A stretch of DNA of 20,118 bases from a virus: positions 1-20,118 of the IMG/VR virus record IMGVR_UViG_3300017765_000104, one strand, 5' to 3'. Numbering within the stretch: position 1 is the stretch's first letter; each line of letters opens with the position of its first letter. Below the pieces are notes generated by a model. The model saw only the letters and a program-made list of their open reading frames with translations. It was not told where the DNA came from and made no database searches. A program made the position numbers and the translations under genes. Positions 2,482-16,926 of the stretch are shown in pieces.

Positions 2482-3854
2482 TGCGATTTCTTGAATACCA
2501 GCATCCCGATTATGATCAGAATCAAGAGCGATGGGAGCTGTATTTGCGCTCATACATGGGCGGTGAGGATTACCAAGCAGGTTCATATCTGACTGGGTAT
2601 CTCAACGAATCAAAAGACGATTACAACCGTCGCATCTCACTCACTCCGGTAGATAACCACTGCCGAAACATTGTTCACATCTATTCATCGTTTCTGTGGC
2701 GTGTGCCGCCGGTCAGAAGTTATAACAGTCTGGCGAATAACCCCGCGCTGCAATCATTCATCAGTGACGCTGATCTTGATGGCATGAACTTTAATTCGTT
2801 TATGAAGCAAGCGCAGATATGGTCATCGGTTTATGGGCACGTTTGGATTCTAGTTGATAAGCCGCAAAGCAACGCGCAGACACGAGCCGAAGAGCTAGAT
2901 CAGGACATTCGACCCTACGTAACGCTATTCACGCCTGAAAACGTATTTGATTGGAAGTATGAGCGCACTCCTAGCGGGCGGTTTGAGCTTACATACCTAA
3001 AGCTGCGTGAGTCAGTAGACCGTGAAGATGCTACAACGACCGTTAGTTATTACAGGCTGTGGCGCAAAGACACCATCGAGTTCTGGAAAGATGACGGCCA
3101 CGCTGAGACAAAGATTGAAGAAGTACCCAATCCATTGGGCAAGATCCCGGCGGCATTCTTACCTGCTGCGCGTAGTGTTGTCCGAGGCGTAGGCATTAGT
3201 GATCTAAGTGACGTTTCGTTAATGCAGAAAGCCATCTATCAAGAGTTAAGCGAGATCGAGCAGCTAATTAGAATCAGTAATCATCCGTCACTGGTTAAGA
3301 CCTATGACGCAGATGCGAGTGCTGGCGCTGGTTCGGTTATTAACTTGCCCGAAGATAGCGATGCAGGGTTAAAGCCGTATCTGTTACAGCCTAGTGGTCA
3401 GAACATCGACTCGATACGCGAGTCAATCAAAGACAAGGTTGAAGCGATTAATCGAATGGCTCATATGGGCGCAGTACGAGGAACCGAAGCAATTACGCAA
3501 TCAGGCGTAGCGATGCAGACCGAGTTTCAAATGCTTAACGCAAAACTATCTGAGAAGGCTGATTTGTTAGAGTTAGCCGAAGAGCATGTCTGGACGTATT
3601 TCTGCAACTGGCTGGGCGTAACCCCTGACGTTGAGGTGTTCTACCCCGATGCGTTTGATCTACGCGATTACGACAAAGAGCTATTGTTCTTGCAGCAAGT
3701 CAGAGCCAGCGGTGTACCGTCTACTACTATGCAGCGTGAAGTTGATAAGCAGATCGCCGATCTAGTGTTAGACGATGAGAAACTAGCAGCGGCGCATAAC
3801 GAGATAGAAGCCGAGACGCGAGTTATAGGGCAGTTTCCCGTACAGGCTGAGTAA
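2481..3854 (+). CDS. Portal protein
   Basis: This 457-residue protein is the dodecameric vertex ring through which DNA enters and leaves the capsid. The assignment rests on its position between terminase and head-morphogenesis genes, its size, and family-like segments: a conserved early stretch around PVDNHCRNIVHIYSSFLW (about 57-74), a FTPENVFDWKY segment, and the long central helix region (IYQELSEIEQLIRISNHPSL). The C-terminal part has the FQMLNAKLSEKADLLELAEE helix typical of portals. I chose ATG 2481, which overlaps the terminase stop (TAATG) and has a GGTGGAG SD just upstream; a GTG at 2472 would add three residues and leave a poorer SD. It overlaps the next gene in TAATG as well. Confidence 0.88.
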   Translation: MRFLEYQHPDYDQNQERWELYLRSYMGGEDYQAGSYLTGYLNESKDDYNRRISLTPVDNHCRNIVHIYSSFLWRVPPVRSYNSLANNPALQSFISDADLDGMNFNSFMKQAQIWSSVYGHVWILVDKPQSNAQTRAEELDQDIRPYVTLFTPENVFDWKYERTPSGRFELTYLKLRESVDREDATTTVSYYRLWRKDTIEFWKDDGHAETKIEEVPNPLGKIPAAFLPAARSVVRGVGISDLSDVSLMQKAIYQELSEIEQLIRISNHPSLVKTYDADASAGAGSVINLPEDSDAGLKPYLLQPSGQNIDSIRESIKDKVEAINRMAHMGAVRGTEAITQSGVAMQTEFQMLNAKLSEKADLLELAEEHVWTYFCNWLGVTPDVEVFYPDAFDLRDYDKELLFLQQVRASGVPSTTMQREVDKQIADLVLDDEKLAAAHNEIEAETRVIGQFPVQAE

Positions 3855-5746: not shown

Positions 5747-6580
5747 ATGGCTGCTACTACTAGCACAACCCTAGACGATCTATTTGTCAACATTATCGCT
5801 CAAGCCCGATTCACTGCTGAAGAGCAGTCTTTGATGATGGGCCTTGTAACTCGCTACGACATCGGCGCTGACGCTGGTAAGACAATCCAAGTACCTAAGT
5901 ATCCTGCGATTGCTGCCGCTGATTTGACCGAAGGCACTGATATGTCTTCTACAACTGTAAGCACTAGCTCAGTAACCGTTACGGTTGGTGAAGTTGGCGC
6001 TCAGGTTGTATTGACTGACGTTGCTGCAATGGGCGCAGGTAATCCTGCTGAAGAATTGGGTACGGTTCTCGGTAACGCAATCGCCACAAAGATGGATGTG
6101 GACTTGATTGCATTGTTCGACGGCTTTAGTTCTGGTTTAGGCGGTGCTGGAACTGAGATCACTGTAGCTGACCTGTTCAAAGCTGCTGCAACTCTACGCG
6201 CTGCGAAGGTAACTGGCCCAATGGCGGCTGTTGTTCATCCTTTCCAAGCGTATCAGTTGAAGGCTAACCTCACTAATACATTCGCTAATCCGAATGGCGG
6301 TGACGCGCAGAATACTGCTATGGTAAATGCTTATGTCGGCACAATTGCTGGCATCGATGTTTACGAGTCTGCAAACATCACTGTTGATGGTAGCGATGAC
6401 GCTAAAGGCGCTGTATTTGCACCTGAAGCACTCGCTATCGCTATGAAGCGCGACTTCCAAATTGAGCCACAGCGTGACGCATCACTGCGTGCGTTTGAGC
6501 TTAACGCTACTGCCGTTTACGGTGTTGGCGAGTTGGATGACAGCTTCGGTGTTGAGATGCTTTTCGACTCAGCACTCTAA
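5747..6580 (+). CDS. Major capsid protein
   Basis: This 277-residue protein forms the icosahedral shell and probably has the HK97 fold. The N-terminal arm (1-30) is helical and Thr/Ala-rich. The segment KTIQVPKYPAIAAADLTEGT matches the extended loop and strand region of many small coat proteins, and GEVGAQVVLTDVAAM and the later AVYGVGELDDSFGVEML are typical of this family. No N-terminal protease-cleaved delta domain is obvious, and no protease gene is nearby, so scaffolding is supplied by the separate upstream protein. It has the best SD of the head genes and, like other highly expressed genes, strong codon bias. A hairpin terminator follows directly after the stop codon. The exact subfamily was not resolved. 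Confidence 0.88.
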   Translation: MAATTSTTLDDLFVNIIAQARFTAEEQSLMMGLVTRYDIGADAGKTIQVPKYPAIAAADLTEGTDMSSTTVSTSSVTVTVGEVGAQVVLTDVAAMGAGNPAEELGTVLGNAIATKMDVDLIALFDGFSSGLGGAGTEITVADLFKAAATLRAAKVTGPMAAVVHPFQAYQLKANLTNTFANPNGGDAQNTAMVNAYVGTIAGIDVYESANITVDGSDDAKGAVFAPEALAIAMKRDFQIEPQRDASLRAFELNATAVYGVGELDDSFGVEMLFDSAL

Positions 6581-8623: not shown

Positions 8624-8974
8624 ATGGGTCTAGCTAAAGAGCTAAGAAACAGACGCACAGTAAACCCTCGCAAGATAAGTGTTGACGCATGGGCTGACTC
8701 GGAAGGGCAGCCCTTTGTTATGTACTGCTTTCCGATTACCTGTTACGACTTAAACGAGTTGCAGAAGAAGCACCCGAAATTCCTAGAGAACACAACGGTT
8801 GCTGCAATGGTTGACCTGATCGTTATGAAAGCGGCGAGCGAAGATGGCGAAAAGCTATTTACTGCCGCCGAGGATCGGGTTGACCTGATGGGCGAAGAGA
8901 CTGCGGTTATATCCGAGATTGCCAATCAAATGTTTGCCGAAATTGAATCGGTTGAGGATGCGGAAAAAAACTGA
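8624..8974 (+). CDS. Tail assembly chaperone, frame-0 product (gpG-like)
   Basis: This 116-residue protein lies between tube and tape measure, the fixed position of the lambda G / GT chaperone pair, which coats the tape measure during tail building. Its features fit: a basic N-terminus (MGLAKELRNRRTVNPRKISV), an acidic C-terminal half (EDGEKLFTAAEDRVDLMGEE) and no enzymatic motif. The last sense codons are GAA AAA AAC directly before TGA, forming an A AAA AAC slippery site. A -1 slip there would replace termination by the downstream frame and give a protein of 163 residues. The start is ATG 8624 with a GGGG SD. Confidence 0.8.
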   Translation: MGLAKELRNRRTVNPRKISVDAWADSEGQPFVMYCFPITCYDLNELQKKHPKFLENTTVAAMVDLIVMKAASEDGEKLFTAAEDRVDLMGEETAVISEIANQMFAEIESVEDAEKN

Positions 8975-9018
8975 TGTCCGATCCGTCGAGGATGAATCTC
9001 ATATCCTTGGCTGATCGG
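8963..9018 (+). promoter_or_regulatory. Programmed -1 frameshift cassette (slippery site and stem-loop)
   Basis: The heptamer A AAA AAC (8965-8971) is in the correct phase with the frame-0 gene (GAA AAA AAC TGA). Six bases further on, CCGATC (8978-8983) pairs with GATCGG (9013-9018), and inside it AGGAT (8989-8993) pairs with ATCCT (9003-9007) around a 9-base loop. A slippery heptamer, a 5-9 base spacer and a downstream structure are the standard parts of a -1 frameshift signal, and the tail chaperone is the classic gene to carry one. Confidence 0.78.
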
Positions 9019-9114
9019 TTACATAAGACAATAGAAGAGGTTGAGCAGATATCCGTTAGCGAATTTAACGAATGGCTCGCCTACTTCAAGATCATAGGCA
9101 AAGACGATGGCTAA
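8974..9114 (+). CDS. Tail assembly chaperone, -1 frame extension (gpT-like)
   Basis: This 46-residue frame (from ATG 8974, with one extra Leu codon when entered by frameshift at 8971) reads MSDPSRMNLISLADRLHKTI and ends with SVSEFNEWLAYFKIIGKDDG. The 'E-F-x-E-W-L-A-Y-F' phrase near the end is typical of the T part of GT chaperones. It is probably made only as a fusion with the 116-residue protein by -1 slippage, although the TGATG overlap also allows re-initiation; a GAGGA at 8954-8958 is too far (15 bases) to be a good SD for ATG 8974. Its 3' end overlaps the tape measure start by 8 bases. Confidence 0.75.
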   Translation: MSDPSRMNLISLADRLHKTIEEVEQISVSEFNEWLAYFKIIGKDDG

Positions 9115-10717
9115 TCAAGACGTTCGCATTTCGATCAAGGCGGTAGATAAAACCAGAGCTGGTTTTTCATCCGTCACGAAAGGGCTGAAGAGCGTAGCCG
9201 GGGCAGTTTTCAGTATGAAAAGCGCGATTGCTAGTGCTGTAGGCATTGGCGGTATCGGCTTGATGATTCAGCAATCCCTAAAAGCCACTGATGCACTCGC
9301 AAAAACTGCTACCCGAATAGGTACGACCACTGAGGCATTAAGCAAGCTGCATTTCGCGGCTGATCTTACAGGCGTATCCACAGATACCATGAACATGGCA
9401 CTACAGCGGTTCACTAGAAGAACCTCTGAGGCTGCGCGTGGTACTGGAGAAGCGCGTGGCGCATTACGTGATCTAAACTTAAATGCTGAAGATTTGCTTA
9501 GATTGCCGCTCGATGAGCAGATGATCAAGCTGGCACAAGCGTTTGATGAAAACATTGATCCAGTTAATCGAACCGCTACGGCGATGAAGTTGTTTGACTC
9601 GGAAGGTGTGGCATTACTGCAAACCCTTGATGGGGGCGCTGAAGCCTTGCGAGGGATGTTCACCGAAGCTGAATTACTCGGCTTGGTAATGGATACCAAA
9701 TTATCCGCTGGCGTAACAGAAGCAAACGACAGCATTACCAGATTGTTTGCTGGTACGAGAGGGTTAGTTCGGCAGTTTACGGCGGCGCTGGCCCCAGCAA
9801 TAACCGCTGTGGTTACGGAATGGCACAATTATGTAGCGGGCTTGGCCGAGGCAGAAGGTGGCTTTAAGAATCTCGCACTAACGTTTGCGACAGATGTTGT
9901 GTCGGCGCTACAGCAAAGCGTCCAATCTATCGCCAATGTGGTCAATTCGTTTATAAGAGGCTTCAACGCAATCAAAGAAGCCTATGCGGGATTCATGGAC
10001 TTCATCGGCAAAGGCGATGGCACATTTGAAGTAACCGCCGAGATAGATGTTTCTGAATTTATAACCAAGCTAGAAAAAGTCAAAGACAAAATAAGCGAGA
10101 TTCAACACGGTGTAAAAGAGGTCGAAAAAGCTACGGTACAGGCTACAAAGCCATCGCTTTGGGCGCAGTTCACCGAGGCAGCTGGTGGCGCGTTGCAGAA
10201 CATCCGAGATGAGATCGGCAGCACTCAGCAAACATTTCAAGCAATGGAAAAGACCGTCGAGGATATTGCTACAAAGGGCATGAAAGACCTTACCGATGGT
10301 TTATATGATGCGGCTGCGAGCACAAAGACTCTAGGCGAAGCGTTTAGAAAGATGGCTGCTGGTATTCTGGAAGATCTGACCAAAATGATTATCAGATATT
10401 TGATTGTACGTCCTTTGTTTGGAGCGATTACAGGCGGCGCATCAGAGACGTTTACAGGCAAGGCGATAGGTGGATCGGTGCAAGCTGGTAGCCCGTATAT
10501 GGTCGGCGAGCGTGGGCCGGAAATGTTTATTCCTAATTCATCGGGGTCGATTGTTCCTAACGATAAGATGGGCGGCGGTATTACTGTCGTGAATAATGTT
10601 AATGCGTCTGGCGCTGGCCCTGAGGTGGACTTAAAGATCCGAGCGGCTATGCAGCAGACATCGCAGCAGACTATTCTATCCATTCAAGATTTGCTGCGTA
10701 GAAGGCGCTTCGTATGA
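9107..10717 (+). CDS. Tail tape measure protein (short, lambda-family C-terminus)
   Basis: This 536-residue protein sets tail length and is carried inside the tube. The N-terminal region has VRISIKAVDKTRAGFSSVTK and a long Ala-rich helical stretch, including the segment LSKLHFAADLTGVSTDTM seen in many tape measures. A hydrophobic segment lies near 427-442 (MIIRYLIVRPLFGAIT). The C-terminal domain has the characteristic SPYMVGERGPEMFIPNSSG (VGERGPE begins at 466), as in the lambda tape-measure C-terminal family. It starts at ATG 9107, overlapping the chaperone extension. At roughly 0.15 nm per residue, a rule of thumb, it predicts a short tail of about 80 nm. No lytic transglycosylase or peptidase domain is visible. 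Confidence 0.9.
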   Translation: MANQDVRISIKAVDKTRAGFSSVTKGLKSVAGAVFSMKSAIASAVGIGGIGLMIQQSLKATDALAKTATRIGTTTEALSKLHFAADLTGVSTDTMNMALQRFTRRTSEAARGTGEARGALRDLNLNAEDLLRLPLDEQMIKLAQAFDENIDPVNRTATAMKLFDSEGVALLQTLDGGAEALRGMFTEAELLGLVMDTKLSAGVTEANDSITRLFAGTRGLVRQFTAALAPAITAVVTEWHNYVAGLAEAEGGFKNLALTFATDVVSALQQSVQSIANVVNSFIRGFNAIKEAYAGFMDFIGKGDGTFEVTAEIDVSEFITKLEKVKDKISEIQHGVKEVEKATVQATKPSLWAQFTEAAGGALQNIRDEIGSTQQTFQAMEKTVEDIATKGMKDLTDGLYDAAASTKTLGEAFRKMAAGILEDLTKMIIRYLIVRPLFGAITGGASETFTGKAIGGSVQAGSPYMVGERGPEMFIPNSSGSIVPNDKMGGGITVVNNVNASGAGPEVDLKIRAAMQQTSQQTILSIQDLLRRRRFV

Positions 10718-11313
10718 CCACTTACTCATTCCCGTCGATAACGCCATCAAGCAGTACGTTTGAGCTAGTCAGTAACACTAGAACCTACCGATCACCGCTG
10801 ACTAATGCGGTTCAGACTGTAGGGCGCAAGGGTTCGTTATGGCGAGCCACGTTACAGTTCAACAACCTTACAGGCGCAGATCGCGCTGAGATGCAAGCGT
10901 TTGTTACTAAATTGAACGGCCAAGAGCATCGGTTCACGCTACATGATCACTCATACACCCTTCGAGGCGCAGGTGGCGGCACGTTAAGAGTAAACGGCGC
11001 AAGCCAGTCTGGTTCTAGCTTGGTTTGTGATGGCGCGACTGCCAGTGTTACGAATTACCTCAGAGCGGGCGATTACGTTTCGTTTAGTAATGAACTGCAT
11101 ATGGTCACGGCTGACGCTAATTCTGACGGTTCTGGGAATCTAACCCTGTCACTGGCACCGCCTATTAGAAAACAACCTGCCGACGATACGATTATTGACT
11201 ACACTGCTCCGGTCAATGGGGTATTCATGCTCGCTAGTCCAGCATCTTGGAATAACCAACCCGGCATCTTTTCTAGCTTTACTATCGAGGCAATTGAGGA
11301 CGTTCTAGCGTGA
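10714..11313 (+). CDS. Distal tail / minor tail protein (Dit-like)
   Basis: This 199-residue protein starts in an ATGA overlap with the tape measure. The N-terminal half (SNTRTYRSPLTNAVQTVGRK, then WRATLQFNNLTGADRAEMQAF) matches the family in which a beta domain with an 'R-Y-x-S-P-x-T' loop and a helix precede the tail tip. The second half (about 95-199) is beta-rich and carries GDYVSFSNELHMVT and FSSFTIEAIEDV. It probably forms the ring joining tube to tip. It has no enzymatic motif. The next gene overlaps it by four bases (GTGA). Order tape measure, Dit-like, DUF2163-like, NlpC-like, hub matches many GTA-like and marine siphophages. Confidence 0.75.
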   Translation: MTTYSFPSITPSSSTFELVSNTRTYRSPLTNAVQTVGRKGSLWRATLQFNNLTGADRAEMQAFVTKLNGQEHRFTLHDHSYTLRGAGGGTLRVNGASQSGSSLVCDGATASVTNYLRAGDYVSFSNELHMVTADANSDGSGNLTLSLAPPIRKQPADDTIIDYTAPVNGVFMLASPASWNNQPGIFSSFTIEAIEDVLA

Positions 11314-11945
11314 GCAGAGACTTTCCAACAAACGTATCCAATGCGCTGGTTGCTAATCACGTTGCCACGGTTACGTTCATTAAGCTGGAGTTCTCATCAG
11401 GTACTTTATACCTGCACAACTCAATCGGAACCTACACTTGGGGCGGGCAAGACTGGCTAGGGGTAGGCGATCTTGGTGAAATATCCGCCATAGAAGAAGG
11501 GGCCGAAGTCAGCCCATATAAGATTACGTTAAGCCTGTCTGGTATCGACTCGACTATCAGTAACGCGGCGCTGAATGAAGATTACTACATGCGTCCGGTT
11601 ACGTTGTATATCGGGGCGCTCGATGCAAATGATGATCTCTTAGCCAACCCAACGGAAATATGGGCTGGGTTTATGGATCAGATGAACGTATCGCTAGGCG
11701 CTCAAAGCGGCGATGACATAGCACTGATAGCTGAGAGCGAATTAGCGAAGTTTGATCGCGCATCAAATCGTAAATATACCGACGCGAATCAGCAAACCGC
11801 ATTCTCTGGCGACCTATTCTTTGGGTTCTTGAAAGATATAGAAGGGGCCAAGATCCAGTGGGGTAGCGCTGGCGAAGAAGGGACTGCGGGGCGTGGTCAA
11901 GACCGACACCATACTGAACGCGAGAATCCCGGAATGTATCATTAG
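11310..11945 (+). CDS. Minor tail protein, DUF2163 / lambda gpL-like
   Basis: This 211-residue protein begins with GTG 11310 in a GTGA overlap. It has the DUF2163-like N-terminal pattern: MSRDFPTNVSNALVANHVAT, then LEFSSGTLYLHNSIGTYTWG, GVGDLGEISAIEEGAEVSPY, and later EIWAGFMDQMNVSLGAQSGD and FDRASNRKYTDANQQTAFSG. Some relatives have a Cys-rich iron-sulphur C-terminus; this one has no Cys, so that domain is absent. After KIQWGS (about residue 187) the last 25 residues are Gly, Arg and His-rich and look unlike a family core; they may be a variable tail. Its partner genes on both sides build the tail tip. Confidence 0.72.
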   Translation: MSRDFPTNVSNALVANHVATVTFIKLEFSSGTLYLHNSIGTYTWGGQDWLGVGDLGEISAIEEGAEVSPYKITLSLSGIDSTISNAALNEDYYMRPVTLYIGALDANDDLLANPTEIWAGFMDQMNVSLGAQSGDDIALIAESELAKFDRASNRKYTDANQQTAFSGDLFFGFLKDIEGAKIQWGSAGEEGTAGRGQDRHHTERENPGMYH

Positions 11946-11947
11946 TT

Positions 11948-12310
11948 ATGAAGGTATTAGCCGCACTCAATAAGTGGCAACGGCGCGAGTTCAATTATGG
12001 CGATGCTGATTGCTGCCAGTTTGCAGCTTTTATTGTTAAAGACCTAACTGGGCAGGATTACGCTGCCGATTTTCAATATAATAGCGAGCAAGAAGCCGAC
12101 AACATCGTAAACGGTGATCTTAAAGGCTTGATCGTGTCGATTCTGGGTGATGAGTCAGACCAACTTAAAGATGGCGACCCCTGCTTGATTGAGGTTCCTA
12201 TCGTTGGTCAGCTAATGGGCGTAAAGCTGGGTGATAAGATTGTCGCCCTAACGCAAAAAGGGCTAATCAGAATCAGTAATCGTTATTTAGTCTGCGGTTG
12301 GAGCGTATAG
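11948..12310 (+). CDS. DUF6950 / NlpC-like tail protein
   Basis: This 120-residue protein has the N-terminal motif LNKWQRREFNYGDADCCQFA (about 7-26), in which the 'W...F-x-Y-G-x-x-D-C' phrase matches the small NlpC/P60-related proteins of phage tail regions (DUF6950). Those with full NlpC/P60 activity use a Cys-His pair to cut peptidoglycan peptides. Here C22/C23 are present, but the protein contains no His at all, so peptidase activity is doubtful unless another residue substitutes. The later part GVKLGDKIVALTQKGLIRIS resembles the family's 'G-x-K-x-G-D...L-T-x-x-G' strand pair. Its place before the hub gene equals that of lambda gpK. Confidence 0.72.
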   Translation: MKVLAALNKWQRREFNYGDADCCQFAAFIVKDLTGQDYAADFQYNSEQEADNIVNGDLKGLIVSILGDESDQLKDGDPCLIEVPIVGQLMGVKLGDKIVALTQKGLIRISNRYLVCGWSV

Positions 12311-12313
12311 TAA

Positions 12314-13225
12314 ATGCCTCAAGTTATCCCTGCATTAATTGCCATCGGTGATTTTATAACTGTAGCTGTAGCTGGCTATACAGCCGGAGCCGCTACCGCC
12401 GCCACTATTGGTGCAATCGCCGCAACTGCCGCCGTTATTGGTGGGGCAAGATTGACAACGTCACTGATGATGCCTGATCTTACAAGTTCGATTGGGGATA
12501 ACTCTTCGGTCAGGCAATCCACGGTTAGAAGCACCACAGAACCACAGAAGTTAATTTATGGTCAGGCTTTAGTATCTGGGCCGATTACGTTTGTAGGTAC
12601 GGCTGGCGATAAGAACCGTGACCTATATCATCAGGTTGCACTTGCAGGGCATGAATGCGAGTCAATCGGGGACATTTTCTTTGATGATCAACGAATTGCA
12701 AGCTCAGTCATTAGCGGTGGCAATGCGGCGGGTGGTAATGTCACAGGCGGCGACTTTGGCCCTATCAACAGCACCACTATCTGTAAGATCAACAAGCATC
12801 TAGGGACATCGACCCAAGCAGCAGATGCAGACCTAGTAGCAGCGTTTAGTGAATACACTAGCGCCCACCAAGGTAAGGGCATTGCCAATATCGTAACCAA
12901 GTGGATTCTCAACGATGAGTCCCAATCCGTATGGGATCAGAAACGCCCACAAAACATAAAAGCCCTAGTTAAAGGCAAGAAAGACATCTATGACCCGCGT
13001 CTGGATACATCTGTGGGGGCCAATCCTACGAATTCGAGTTATCAGGCATGGACGGACAATCCTGCGCTGTGCATAGCTGATTACTTGATAAGTACAACCT
13101 TCGGGCTGGGTGTTGCTGCGGCTAAGATTGATTGGAATGCGATAGTTACTGCGGCGAATGCCTGTGATGCAACCGTATCAATCCCCGGCTCTACCACTGA
13201 AAACGTTTCACGTGTAACGGTGTAA
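12314..13225 (+). CDS. Tail hub protein, N-terminal part (frame interrupted)
   Basis: This 303-residue frame begins at ATG 12314 (SD TTGGAG) with a small-residue hydrophobic segment at about 3-45 (AVAGYTAGAATAATIGAIAA) like that of lambda gpI. It continues with a gpJ-like hub region: QKLIYGQALVSGPITFVGT, YHQVALAGHECESIGDIFFD, NPALCIADYLISTTFGLGV. It breaks off after STTENVSRVTV. In the -1 frame the sequence continues perfectly as KRFTCNGVIFGTDQ and then QNIDKLLSSMNGN, so the following large frame is the rest of the same protein. The break is at an A4 run (13200-13203); one more A would restore the frame. Read as one gene (12314-16926) the product is about 1537 residues. Confidence 0.8.
   Translation: MPQVIPALIAIGDFITVAVAGYTAGAATAATIGAIAATAAVIGGARLTTSLMMPDLTSSIGDNSSVRQSTVRSTTEPQKLIYGQALVSGPITFVGTAGDKNRDLYHQVALAGHECESIGDIFFDDQRIASSVISGGNAAGGNVTGGDFGPINSTTICKINKHLGTSTQAADADLVAAFSEYTSAHQGKGIANIVTKWILNDESQSVWDQKRPQNIKALVKGKKDIYDPRLDTSVGANPTNSSYQAWTDNPALCIADYLISTTFGLGVAAAKIDWNAIVTAANACDATVSIPGSTTENVSRVTV
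13200..13204 (+). other. Apparent 1-nt frame break in the tail hub gene
   Basis: The run of four A followed by C spans codons GAA AAC of the first frame. Coding sense moves to the -1 frame here: after residue E296 the expected continuation KRFTCNGVIFGTDQ is read only if one A is gained or the ribosome slips -1. The site is not a standard slippery heptamer (T GAA AAC). A homopolymer error or a true deletion is therefore more likely than programmed frameshifting. Confidence 0.75.
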
Positions 13226-13266
13226 TTTTCGGCACCGATCAGCACCGCCAGAACATCGACAAGCTA

Positions 13267-16200
13267 TTGAGCAGCATGAATGGCAACCTGACTTATACAT
13301 CGGGTAAATACACGGTCAGAGCGGGTGTATACGAGGCTCCTAGCGAGTCTTTAGATGAGGATGATCTATCAGGCCCAGTAATGGTTAAAACGTCTGTAGA
13401 GCGTTCTCAGCGGTTTAACAAGGTCACAGGGATGTATATAGCGCCGACTGATAACCACAAGTCGGTAGAGTTTCCACCAGTACAACTGACTGCGGCCTTA
13501 CAGCGTGACAATAACGAAACGCTAGTCCGCAATATTGCATTACCGATGACCAATACCAGCTATATGGCGCAGCGTATTGCGAACAAGTTGGTGCAGCTAA
13601 GTGACCAGCAGAAGGTCATAACGTTCCCAGCCAATCTGTCTGGATTGCGGGTAGCCGTGGGTGATCGTGTAAGCATTACCCTTAGCGATTTGGGATATTC
13701 CAACAAAGTATTCCGCTGCGTTGGTTGGTCGTTCTCGGAGTCTAATGCTAATGGCGTTAATCTAACTCTGATCGAGGATGATTCTGCAAGCTATGCTGAT
13801 CCTGCTGTTTCTGCATACTCAACAGTCAGCGCGACTGGTGTAATCACGGCAGGGTTTCCGGGCGTACCCGATCCCAGTAACTTAACCGCTACGGCTGGCT
13901 TAAAGAACATTGAATTAAATTGGACTAACCCCACCGAGACCAGCCTGTTTACGGAAATTGCGATTTATTCATCGCCAAACTCTAGTTGGGCAAGTCGCAT
14001 TCTGATCGGTCGCGTTCGCGGCACTCAGTTTATACACGATGCGTCAAACGCCGCTGACTCCATTACCGCTGGCGACCAACGATACTACTGGGTTCAAGCA
14101 TTAGCTTACGGGACTGGCGCTGGTTTCGGCGTTGTTTCAGACAGAAACCCAGACAACGACACTAGCACGATTAGCGCCACGGCTGGGGTCAATGATCCCA
14201 ATTATACGGATGTCGTTAACAACGTCCCCGCGCAGGAAGCGCCGTCTGGTCTAACACTGACCGAAACCACTGTATTGGGTAATGACGGTTCGGTTTTGCC
14301 AGCGATTCGGGTGTCATGGACTGCGCCCACTGCAAATACTTATGTCAGCCACTACGACGTTGAATTTAAGAGAACGTCACAAGGCGAAATTGACTACGGG
14401 CAAGTCACCGACTCGTACACGGCCACTATTGACTACGGTTCTGTTGCTACGGCTACCACTGTTGAGTTGAATTACGGCGGCGTTAACGAGGCCATCAGCG
14501 GCGCGGGTACAGCATTCTCATCAGTCAACGTTCATGGCGTTTCGACTGTCATCTCAGGGATGCAAGAGCTAGAAGAATTTACCGTCCGAGTAAAAGCGGT
14601 CACAGTTGTAGGCACAACGTCAGGAACCATAACCGGCGCGATCACCTTGCAGGGCGATCAGACTGCGCCGGGTATACCGGGATCAATTACCGCTACTGGC
14701 GGCATTCAGCAAATTAAGCTGAACTGGGACAATCCAAGCGATTCAGATTTAGCGTATGTCGAGATATACGAAAACGACACCGACAACCGTGCCACATCTT
14801 CGCTGATTGTTCAGACCAGAGCAGACCAGCATACGGTTTCGGGATTAGGTAACTCGGTTACTAAATACTACTGGCTAAGAAGCGCAGACCGATCCGGTAA
14901 CGTTTCTGGGTTCAGCGCATCTGTAAACGCGACCACGCAAAAGGTCGCAATGAATGATTTGGCGCAAGACGTTCTTGATGAGTTTGCTGCCGGTGATGCC
15001 TTTGGTATTGAGCCGGTCAGCACCCTATCCGGCGTCACAGGCTCGCATGTTGGTCAGATTAAACTATTAACTACGACCGACACGTTGCACGTTTGGACTG
15101 GTTCGGCGTGGTCAACTGACTTATTCACTGCATCGAACGTAGACCCCGGTTCGATTACTGCGGCATCGTTTGCTAGTGGTGTAGAGCCAATATCAGCTGT
15201 CAGCAGCTTGCCGTCGCCTACGGGATACACTGGGCCGAATATCGTATTCCTGACCACTGACAAGAAACTGTACAGGCATGACAGCTCGGTTCCTGAGTTT
15301 ACTACTCTGATCAACGCCAGTGATTTGACTGGCACGTTTGATAGCGACCAGTTCCCTAACAGTCTGCGACCCGTTGAGGTTTTGGGGGCGTTACCGACTA
15401 CCGGCAACACTCAAGGCCGGACGGTACTTCTTACAACTGACAACAAGCTTTACAGGTACACCGGCACATCATTTACAACGGCAATATCTGCGGCTGATCT
15501 CAGCGACCAGCTAAATGTCGCCACGCAGGTGGTCGGTGAATTGCCTGTATCGAACGCGAATGCAGGTCTCAGAAATAGTGGTATCACTATCAACGCAGAC
15601 GGGTCACTGAGCGGGGCCGGTGCAGGTAATGTAACCCTTTCTGGCATAGGGGCTGGCGCACTAGCAGCGCAGAATACGGTAAACCTAGCAACTCAAGTTG
15701 CCGGTGAACTATCAGCAGCTTACGCAGCGGCAGGTCTAAAGAATTCCAACGTCACGATAAACGCGGATGGTACGTTAGGCGGCGCTGGTTCTGGGCAGGT
15801 TTCTCTAAGCGGTATCGGGGCGGGTGCGCTTGCATCGCTCAACAACATCACCGAAACAGAGATAACCGACGGGTCGATCACTACACCTAAGATCGCAGCG
15901 GGCCAGATTACAGCGGCCAAATTAAACGCCTCAGAGGTCTTTGCTGACTCGGTAGTGGCGTCCAACATCGCAGCTAATTCGGTCACAGCGGCTAATATCA
16001 AGTCTGTACTGGTGTCTACTGATAAGTTGGTTGCGGATCAGATTGCAGCGAACACGATCACATCGGATTTGATCGCAAGCCGGACTATTTTGGCCGGTAA
16101 CATCGTTGCTGACACTTTGACCGGCAATGAGATTTCGGCGAATTCGGTAAATGCTGACCGCCTAGTTGCGAACAGTATCACCGCAGGAAAGATTGCAGCT

Positions 16201-16926
16201 GGAACCATAACTGCAACTGAGATATCAACCGGCACTTTGACCGCAAACAAGCTCAACGTTTCTGAGATTTTCGGAGATACGGCGGTAATTGGCGCGATTC
16301 AAGCATCATCGATCACAACGGCGGCGGTTGTTGCTGCTATTGGTACGTTTGAATTCATCCAGTCGGATAACATCCAGTCGAATGCGATCACGGCGGGCAA
16401 GCTGGCCACATCTAATGTTGTAACGTCCAGCGCACAAATATCTGACGGTATTATTACTAACGCCAAGATCGGCAACACGATCCAATCGTCAAACTACTCA
16501 GCGGGTTCTGCTGGCTGGATTATTAACAAGAATGGTGACGCTGAATTCAACGGCGTTGTTCTAAGCCGGAATCTTATTGTTGCGAACGGTACTTATTATC
16601 CAAGCGACCAAACGACCACATTTTCAGGCGATATAAATACGCTGGCGACGTTCTTTATTGAGGGCGTGTATACCGGCGGCTTTACCGCATGGGGCGGGTC
16701 AAACTCTACCCTACTTTGTAACGTCGAGATGGGCGGCAGCTTCTACACCAACGTTGGCTATCAAACCACCTCGATGCTGGGGCCGGTCGCTACCATTTTA
16801 CCTTTGACCAAGTTTCAAGGCACGCAAGGCTTTACGCTAAAGATTGAGATGGTCGGTAGGCACGTTGCTGGCTGGGGTGCGCCGAGTGATTTAACGCTAA
16901 GCTGGAAAATCTACAAGGTAACGTAA
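13267..16926 (+). CDS. Tail hub/tip protein, large C-terminal part with FN3 repeats
   Basis: Coding sense in this frame extends upstream to about 13204; TTG 13267 has no SD and is unlikely to be a true start. Numbering from 13267 (1219 residues): hub core to about 190 (QRFNKVTGMYIAPTDNHKS, VAVGDRVSITLSDLGY); three fibronectin type III-like domains at about 196-310, 323-464 and 465-560; three modules with TTDxKLYR at 582-748; two 56-residue repeats at 750-861; a long stretch of 'I-T-x-x-x-I' repeats at about 862-1072; then GWIINKNGDAEFNGVVLSR, the usual end phrase of central tail tip proteins, and a beta-rich C-terminal domain. It forms the central tail tip that contacts the host surface, by analogy with lambda gpJ. 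Confidence 0.85.
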   Translation: MSSMNGNLTYTSGKYTVRAGVYEAPSESLDEDDLSGPVMVKTSVERSQRFNKVTGMYIAPTDNHKSVEFPPVQLTAALQRDNNETLVRNIALPMTNTSYMAQRIANKLVQLSDQQKVITFPANLSGLRVAVGDRVSITLSDLGYSNKVFRCVGWSFSESNANGVNLTLIEDDSASYADPAVSAYSTVSATGVITAGFPGVPDPSNLTATAGLKNIELNWTNPTETSLFTEIAIYSSPNSSWASRILIGRVRGTQFIHDASNAADSITAGDQRYYWVQALAYGTGAGFGVVSDRNPDNDTSTISATAGVNDPNYTDVVNNVPAQEAPSGLTLTETTVLGNDGSVLPAIRVSWTAPTANTYVSHYDVEFKRTSQGEIDYGQVTDSYTATIDYGSVATATTVELNYGGVNEAISGAGTAFSSVNVHGVSTVISGMQELEEFTVRVKAVTVVGTTSGTITGAITLQGDQTAPGIPGSITATGGIQQIKLNWDNPSDSDLAYVEIYENDTDNRATSSLIVQTRADQHTVSGLGNSVTKYYWLRSADRSGNVSGFSASVNATTQKVAMNDLAQDVLDEFAAGDAFGIEPVSTLSGVTGSHVGQIKLLTTTDTLHVWTGSAWSTDLFTASNVDPGSITAASFASGVEPISAVSSLPSPTGYTGPNIVFLTTDKKLYRHDSSVPEFTTLINASDLTGTFDSDQFPNSLRPVEVLGALPTTGNTQGRTVLLTTDNKLYRYTGTSFTTAISAADLSDQLNVATQVVGELPVSNANAGLRNSGITINADGSLSGAGAGNVTLSGIGAGALAAQNTVNLATQVAGELSAAYAAAGLKNSNVTINADGTLGGAGSGQVSLSGIGAGALASLNNITETEITDGSITTPKIAAGQITAAKLNASEVFADSVVASNIAANSVTAANIKSVLVSTDKLVADQIAANTITSDLIASRTILAGNIVADTLTGNEISANSVNADRLVANSITAGKIAAGTITATEISTGTLTANKLNVSEIFGDTAVIGAIQASSITTAAVVAAIGTFEFIQSDNIQSNAITAGKLATSNVVTSSAQISDGIITNAKIGNTIQSSNYSAGSAGWIINKNGDAEFNGVVLSRNLIVANGTYYPSDQTTTFSGDINTLATFFIEGVYTGGFTAWGGSNSTLLCNVEMGGSFYTNVGYQTTSMLGPVATILPLTKFQGTQGFTLKIEMVGRHVAGWGAPSDLTLSWKIYKVT
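15010..15510 (+). repeat. Three tandem TTDxKLYR modules in the tail hub
   Basis: Three protein-level repeats of about 58-61 residues begin at 15010, 15184 and 15367. Each has EPVS/EPIS/RPVEV followed by LP or LS, then TG, a strand ending LTTDxKLYR (degenerate LTTTDTLHVW in the first) and a TTLINASDL or TTAISAADL segment. The pattern is a short beta module, with the first copy most diverged. Confidence 0.72.
15514..15849 (+). repeat. Two tandem 56-residue repeats in the tail hub
   Basis: Copy 1 (15514-15681) starts NVATQVVGEL and copy 2 (15682-15849) starts NLATQVAGEL. Both share AGLRNS/AGLKNS, TINADGSL/TINADGTL and LSGIGAGALA. The period is exactly 168 bases. The DNA has diverged more than the protein, which suggests an old duplication kept for structure. 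Confidence 0.85.
15850..16480 (+). repeat. I-T/S-x-x-x-I repeat array in the tail hub
   Basis: Successive short units such as ITDGSITTPKIAAGQITAAKL, SNIAANSVTAANIKS, DQIAANTITSDLIAS, NEISANSVNADRLVANSITAGKIAAG and TEISTGTLTANKL recur every 10-22 residues. This is the pattern of a triple-stranded beta-helix or spiral shaft found in central tail fibre regions. Confidence 0.75.

Follow-up and report, generated by a model that had tools for sequence, protein, structure and literature searches.

An isolated one-base break, probably an artefact, in the J-type tail-tip gene of a metagenomic siphophage record

We found that an ordinary siphophage J-type tail-tip gene of the lambda J family carries an isolated one-base break, probably an artefact, in an IMG/VR virus record. 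The whole stretch of DNA analyzed, referred to here as the window, is 20,118 bases long and contains siphophage head and tail genes, of which terminase, portal, tail tube, tape measure and tail tip were identified. A single base lost from a short A-run at 13200-13203 would interrupt one J-family gene (12314-16926). We infer that the base is missing from the record only, in which case the virus would make one uninterrupted protein of ~1540 residues, by homology to lambda gpJ the trimeric hub, which would bear the central fiber and lie beneath the distal tail ring.

The gene now stands in two pieces, both on the plus strand. The N-terminal piece, of 303 aa (12314..13225, frame 2), ends in STTENVSRVTV at a stop codon at 13223-13225, and its final few residues are out of frame. 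It matches PHROG 5616 (E = 5e-41) and PHROG 31 (central tail fiber J; E = 4e-20), and the J proteins of relatives cover 12314-13201 of the window in frame 2. From the A-run, frame 1 reads KRFTCNGVIFGTDQHRQNIDKLLSSMNGN and continues without a stop to 16926, into an ORF of 1219 residues, so that the joining of the -1 frame to this ORF proposed in the initial annotation is confirmed, as are the A4 run at 13200-13203 and both frames as it described them. The mechanically called ORF (13267-16926) begins with a TTG at 13267, which is merely the first start codon following a stop in frame 1; homology begins at 13201. The distal piece proper (13201..16926), to which the relatives' J proteins align, comprises the rest of the hub, FN3-like domains and the tail tip/fiber region; it matches PF09327 (Phage_Tail_Tip), PHROG 31 (E = 2e-44) and, weakly, the end of PF13550. 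Upstream, also on the plus strand, lie further tail-tip genes that set the hub in its context, namely a distal tail protein (10714-11313), a PHROG 2048 tail protein (11310-11945) and a DUF6950 protein (11948-12310).

Judged by frames and profiles, ORF 12314-13225 and the frame leading into ORF 13267-16926 are two parts of one predicted J-type hub/central fiber protein (PHROG 31). Both pieces match this family, and single proteins of the relatives span both. In L004, the nearest full-length relative, the single protein matches PHROG 31 with an E value of 7e-77 and carries PF13550 and then PF09327, an FN3 match below threshold lying between the two, and the distal piece in the window is arranged likewise. 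A J-type gene (PHROG 31, lambda gpJ) is marked by the profile match, found here for both pieces, by a hub domain followed by FN3 and a tail-tip fiber region, also found, and by an uninterrupted frame, which is present in all 75 distinct spanning relatives and absent from the window at 13200-13203. The window gene is thus classed as an interrupted copy of a J-type hub gene. For one relative, residues 1-652 were modeled with AlphaFold, but the model (mean pLDDT 51) was too poor for use.

Relatives pass the point in a single frame. Used as a query against IMG/VR, the beginning of the second ORF brought up 52 relatives; 46 of them have upstream sequence, and all 46 cross without a change of frame, the peptide there being, for example, TTEKRFTCNGVIFGTDQHRQNIDK or TQKRFTANGV. 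A wider profile scan gave 123 spanning loci, representing 75 distinct sequences, every one of them single-frame at this position, and homologues with two separate genes here, which the initial annotation had envisaged as contrary evidence, were not among them. Comparing A-run lengths, as had been suggested, revealed that in the nearest records (L002-L007, L043 and the partial L053), which are close to the window in sequence on either side, the run is one base longer. L004 (G003) has one ORF of 1538 codons, the aligned part of which measures 1537 aa when taken from the start codon in the window, in agreement with the earlier estimate that one extra A would give a single protein of ~1537 residues. 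Where the first piece goes out of frame, the family has a nearly invariant K298 and an invariant R299. Among known phages, a protein search matched 287 distant records, and in each of the 40 listed matches the alignment crosses the point unbroken; a DNA search of known phages gave no match, and no relative was confirmed in a scan of genome contigs with the family profile. Over residues 1-652 of the relatives, a single break was flagged, in the J gene of L041 (around 2154); it lies at an N-filled gap and is an assembly artefact.

Furthermore, when the relatives' open frames were placed back on the window (some contigs being represented twice), their J proteins left frame 2 for frame 1 within 13195-13204, nearly all at exactly 13201. 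Because every spanning relative shows this in its J protein, the frame break is, by this mapping, far beyond chance. The only further frame switch reported, at window position 15461, is a fault of relative G005 itself, and a search against the relatives revealed no other uncompensated frame break in the window genes; general noise of the record was rejected on this ground. These results indicate one protein family, a one-base difference and no other frame break in the window genes, at the level of sequence comparison, and they bear out the earlier proposal that one hub protein is broken by a single base.

What is the origin of the missing base? Since all 75 distinct spanning relatives are unbroken at the point, the likeliest origin is an error in the sequence or a mutation that arose once, and not a new mechanism. 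Both had been named in the initial annotation and both stand, while the slippage listed beside them is now unlikely. We favor the error: the base was probably lost in the read data, the assembly or the consensus of the metagenomic record. In a GeneTack survey, isolated frame breaks confirmed by homology were expected to be sequencing errors and not genuine indels (PMC3711429), and the singleton frameshift genes of that survey resemble the hub break in being unclustered and confirmed by homology to intact proteins, with no difference evident. An argument against an error is that the window is otherwise frame-clean and the record therefore not generally noisy. In the closest long relative, L063 (G005), conserved genes are hit by isolated single-base indels of the sort that noisy sequence would give (window-equivalent positions 3521, 5708, 5822-5976, 11489, 15461 and 16660). 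As G005 has several of its own, records of this group do carry single-base indels.

A genuine recent one-base deletion, in a defective genome of the population or a decaying prophage copy that makes no full-length hub, is a less probable explanation, though one to be taken seriously. A very recent real deletion would give an identical sequence picture, short A-runs are common deletion sites, and the ~20 kb of the window contain a single frame break. In addition, the junction sequence of the window had no match in an exact-pattern scan, and no intact record of the same virus came to light in a set from which near-identical records may have been left out. On the other hand, lambda J is essential to tail assembly and adsorption, and a lethal lesion in an essential J should rarely become the consensus of a sampled population. 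Selection, too, speaks against it: over well-aligning stretches, dN/dS against near relatives is 0.09-0.20 for the upstream piece and, against L004 over 1240 codons, 0.08 for the downstream piece. Purifying selection is thus kept in both pieces, neither of which shows relaxation or decay after the break, and since no other broken gene was seen in the window either, the break is recent at most. Nothing points to a decaying prophage, because no host flank or integrase was recognized among the window ORFs examined.

The hub gene is mosaic between 12400 and 14500. Its N-terminal half is nearest to L002/L043 and, beyond about 13550, it is nearest to L004/L005/L006; the change to L004-like sequence starts at about 13550 and is complete by about 14200, from where no DNA similarity to L002/L043 is left. 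Could the break be a recombination or assembly join? Counted per 50 bases, identity to L002/L043 is ~80-98% between 12750 and about 13650, continuous across the break with no junction at 13203, and a join was rejected.

Recoding, in which a -1 shift of the ribosome or transcriptional slippage at the A-run gives the full-length hub from a split gene, is very unlikely. The frame change does have the -1 direction, and a good candidate -1 site lies elsewhere in the window, but at the hub break the heptamer, a conserved frame relation or motif and a stimulatory RNA structure are all missing, and a programmed frameshift was rejected. The zero frame reads ACT GAA AAC, that is, T_GAA_AAC, which is not a slippery heptamer of the form X_XXY_YYZ; the run is a short A4, one of 50 in the window; and the downstream RNA is not unusually stable (pseudoknot-free fold z -0.55 over 84 nt). 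The relatives are fused in frame, with AAG (53/75), AAA (20/75) or another codon (2/75) at that residue, and no slippery motif is conserved among them. Slighter still is the chance that the virus itself carries the split and that non-canonical frameshifting at a weak site makes a low level of full-length hub, recoding setting the level of J. A hub naturally divided, with the second piece translated from TTG 13267 or ATG 13276, is the least credible reading and was rejected: siphophage hubs may comprise one to three polypeptides (PMC13243795), but the known division (lambda gpL/gpJ, RcGTA gp13/gp15) is where gpJ starts, in the HDII-insertion (PMC10721106), away from the equivalent of lambda J ~320 where the window is cut, none of the 75 distinct spanning relatives is divided at the point, the first piece would end out of frame where K298 and R299 are conserved, and either start has a mere 3-base Shine-Dalgarno match (some other window genes have no better).

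For annotation, the two ORFs should be merged into a single entry, an interrupted J-type hub gene, in place of two tail proteins; the TTG start at 13267 should be dropped. The biological interest of the break is low; its value is the correction.

How does the gene compare with known systems? The profile (query 246-383) matches residues 267-410 of the lambda tip attachment protein J (PDB 8iyk, 9e7m; E = 4e-4), a region that includes the break, whose equivalent is at about residue 320, inside a conserved hub segment. In lambda, as in the window, tail-tip genes precede J, whereas the lambda protein is distant in sequence and the window gene is split by one base. The T5 baseplate hub pb3 (PDB 7zhj) is matched by the family profile over 143-539 (E = 1e-12), again in the region with the break; pb3 has its own HDI within one intact chain (PMC10721106), whereas the window protein has a long distal fiber part. 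The analogy with lambda gpJ (PMC10721106) suggests a trimeric hub with a central fiber for the intact protein.

The window also allows a comparison with the gpG/gpGT programmed -1 frameshift, likewise a -1 change in a tail gene. In the tail chaperone gene (8624-9112), the heptamer A_AAA_AAC at 8965-8971 is followed by a TGA, and the -1 frame continues with KKLMSDPSRMNLISLADRLHKTIEEVEQISVSEFNEWLAYFKIIGKDDG and stays open for ~47 more codons. The motif and the frame relation are found in 7/7 relatives, and the downstream RNA has a fold z of -1.89. This site is a good candidate for a programmed -1 frameshift of the known gpG/gpGT kind. The hub break, in contrast, has neither a slippery heptamer nor conservation, and its relatives are fused in frame. 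The comparison illustrates how an isolated one-base break can be told from a true programmed frameshift, of which the same window holds a good candidate.
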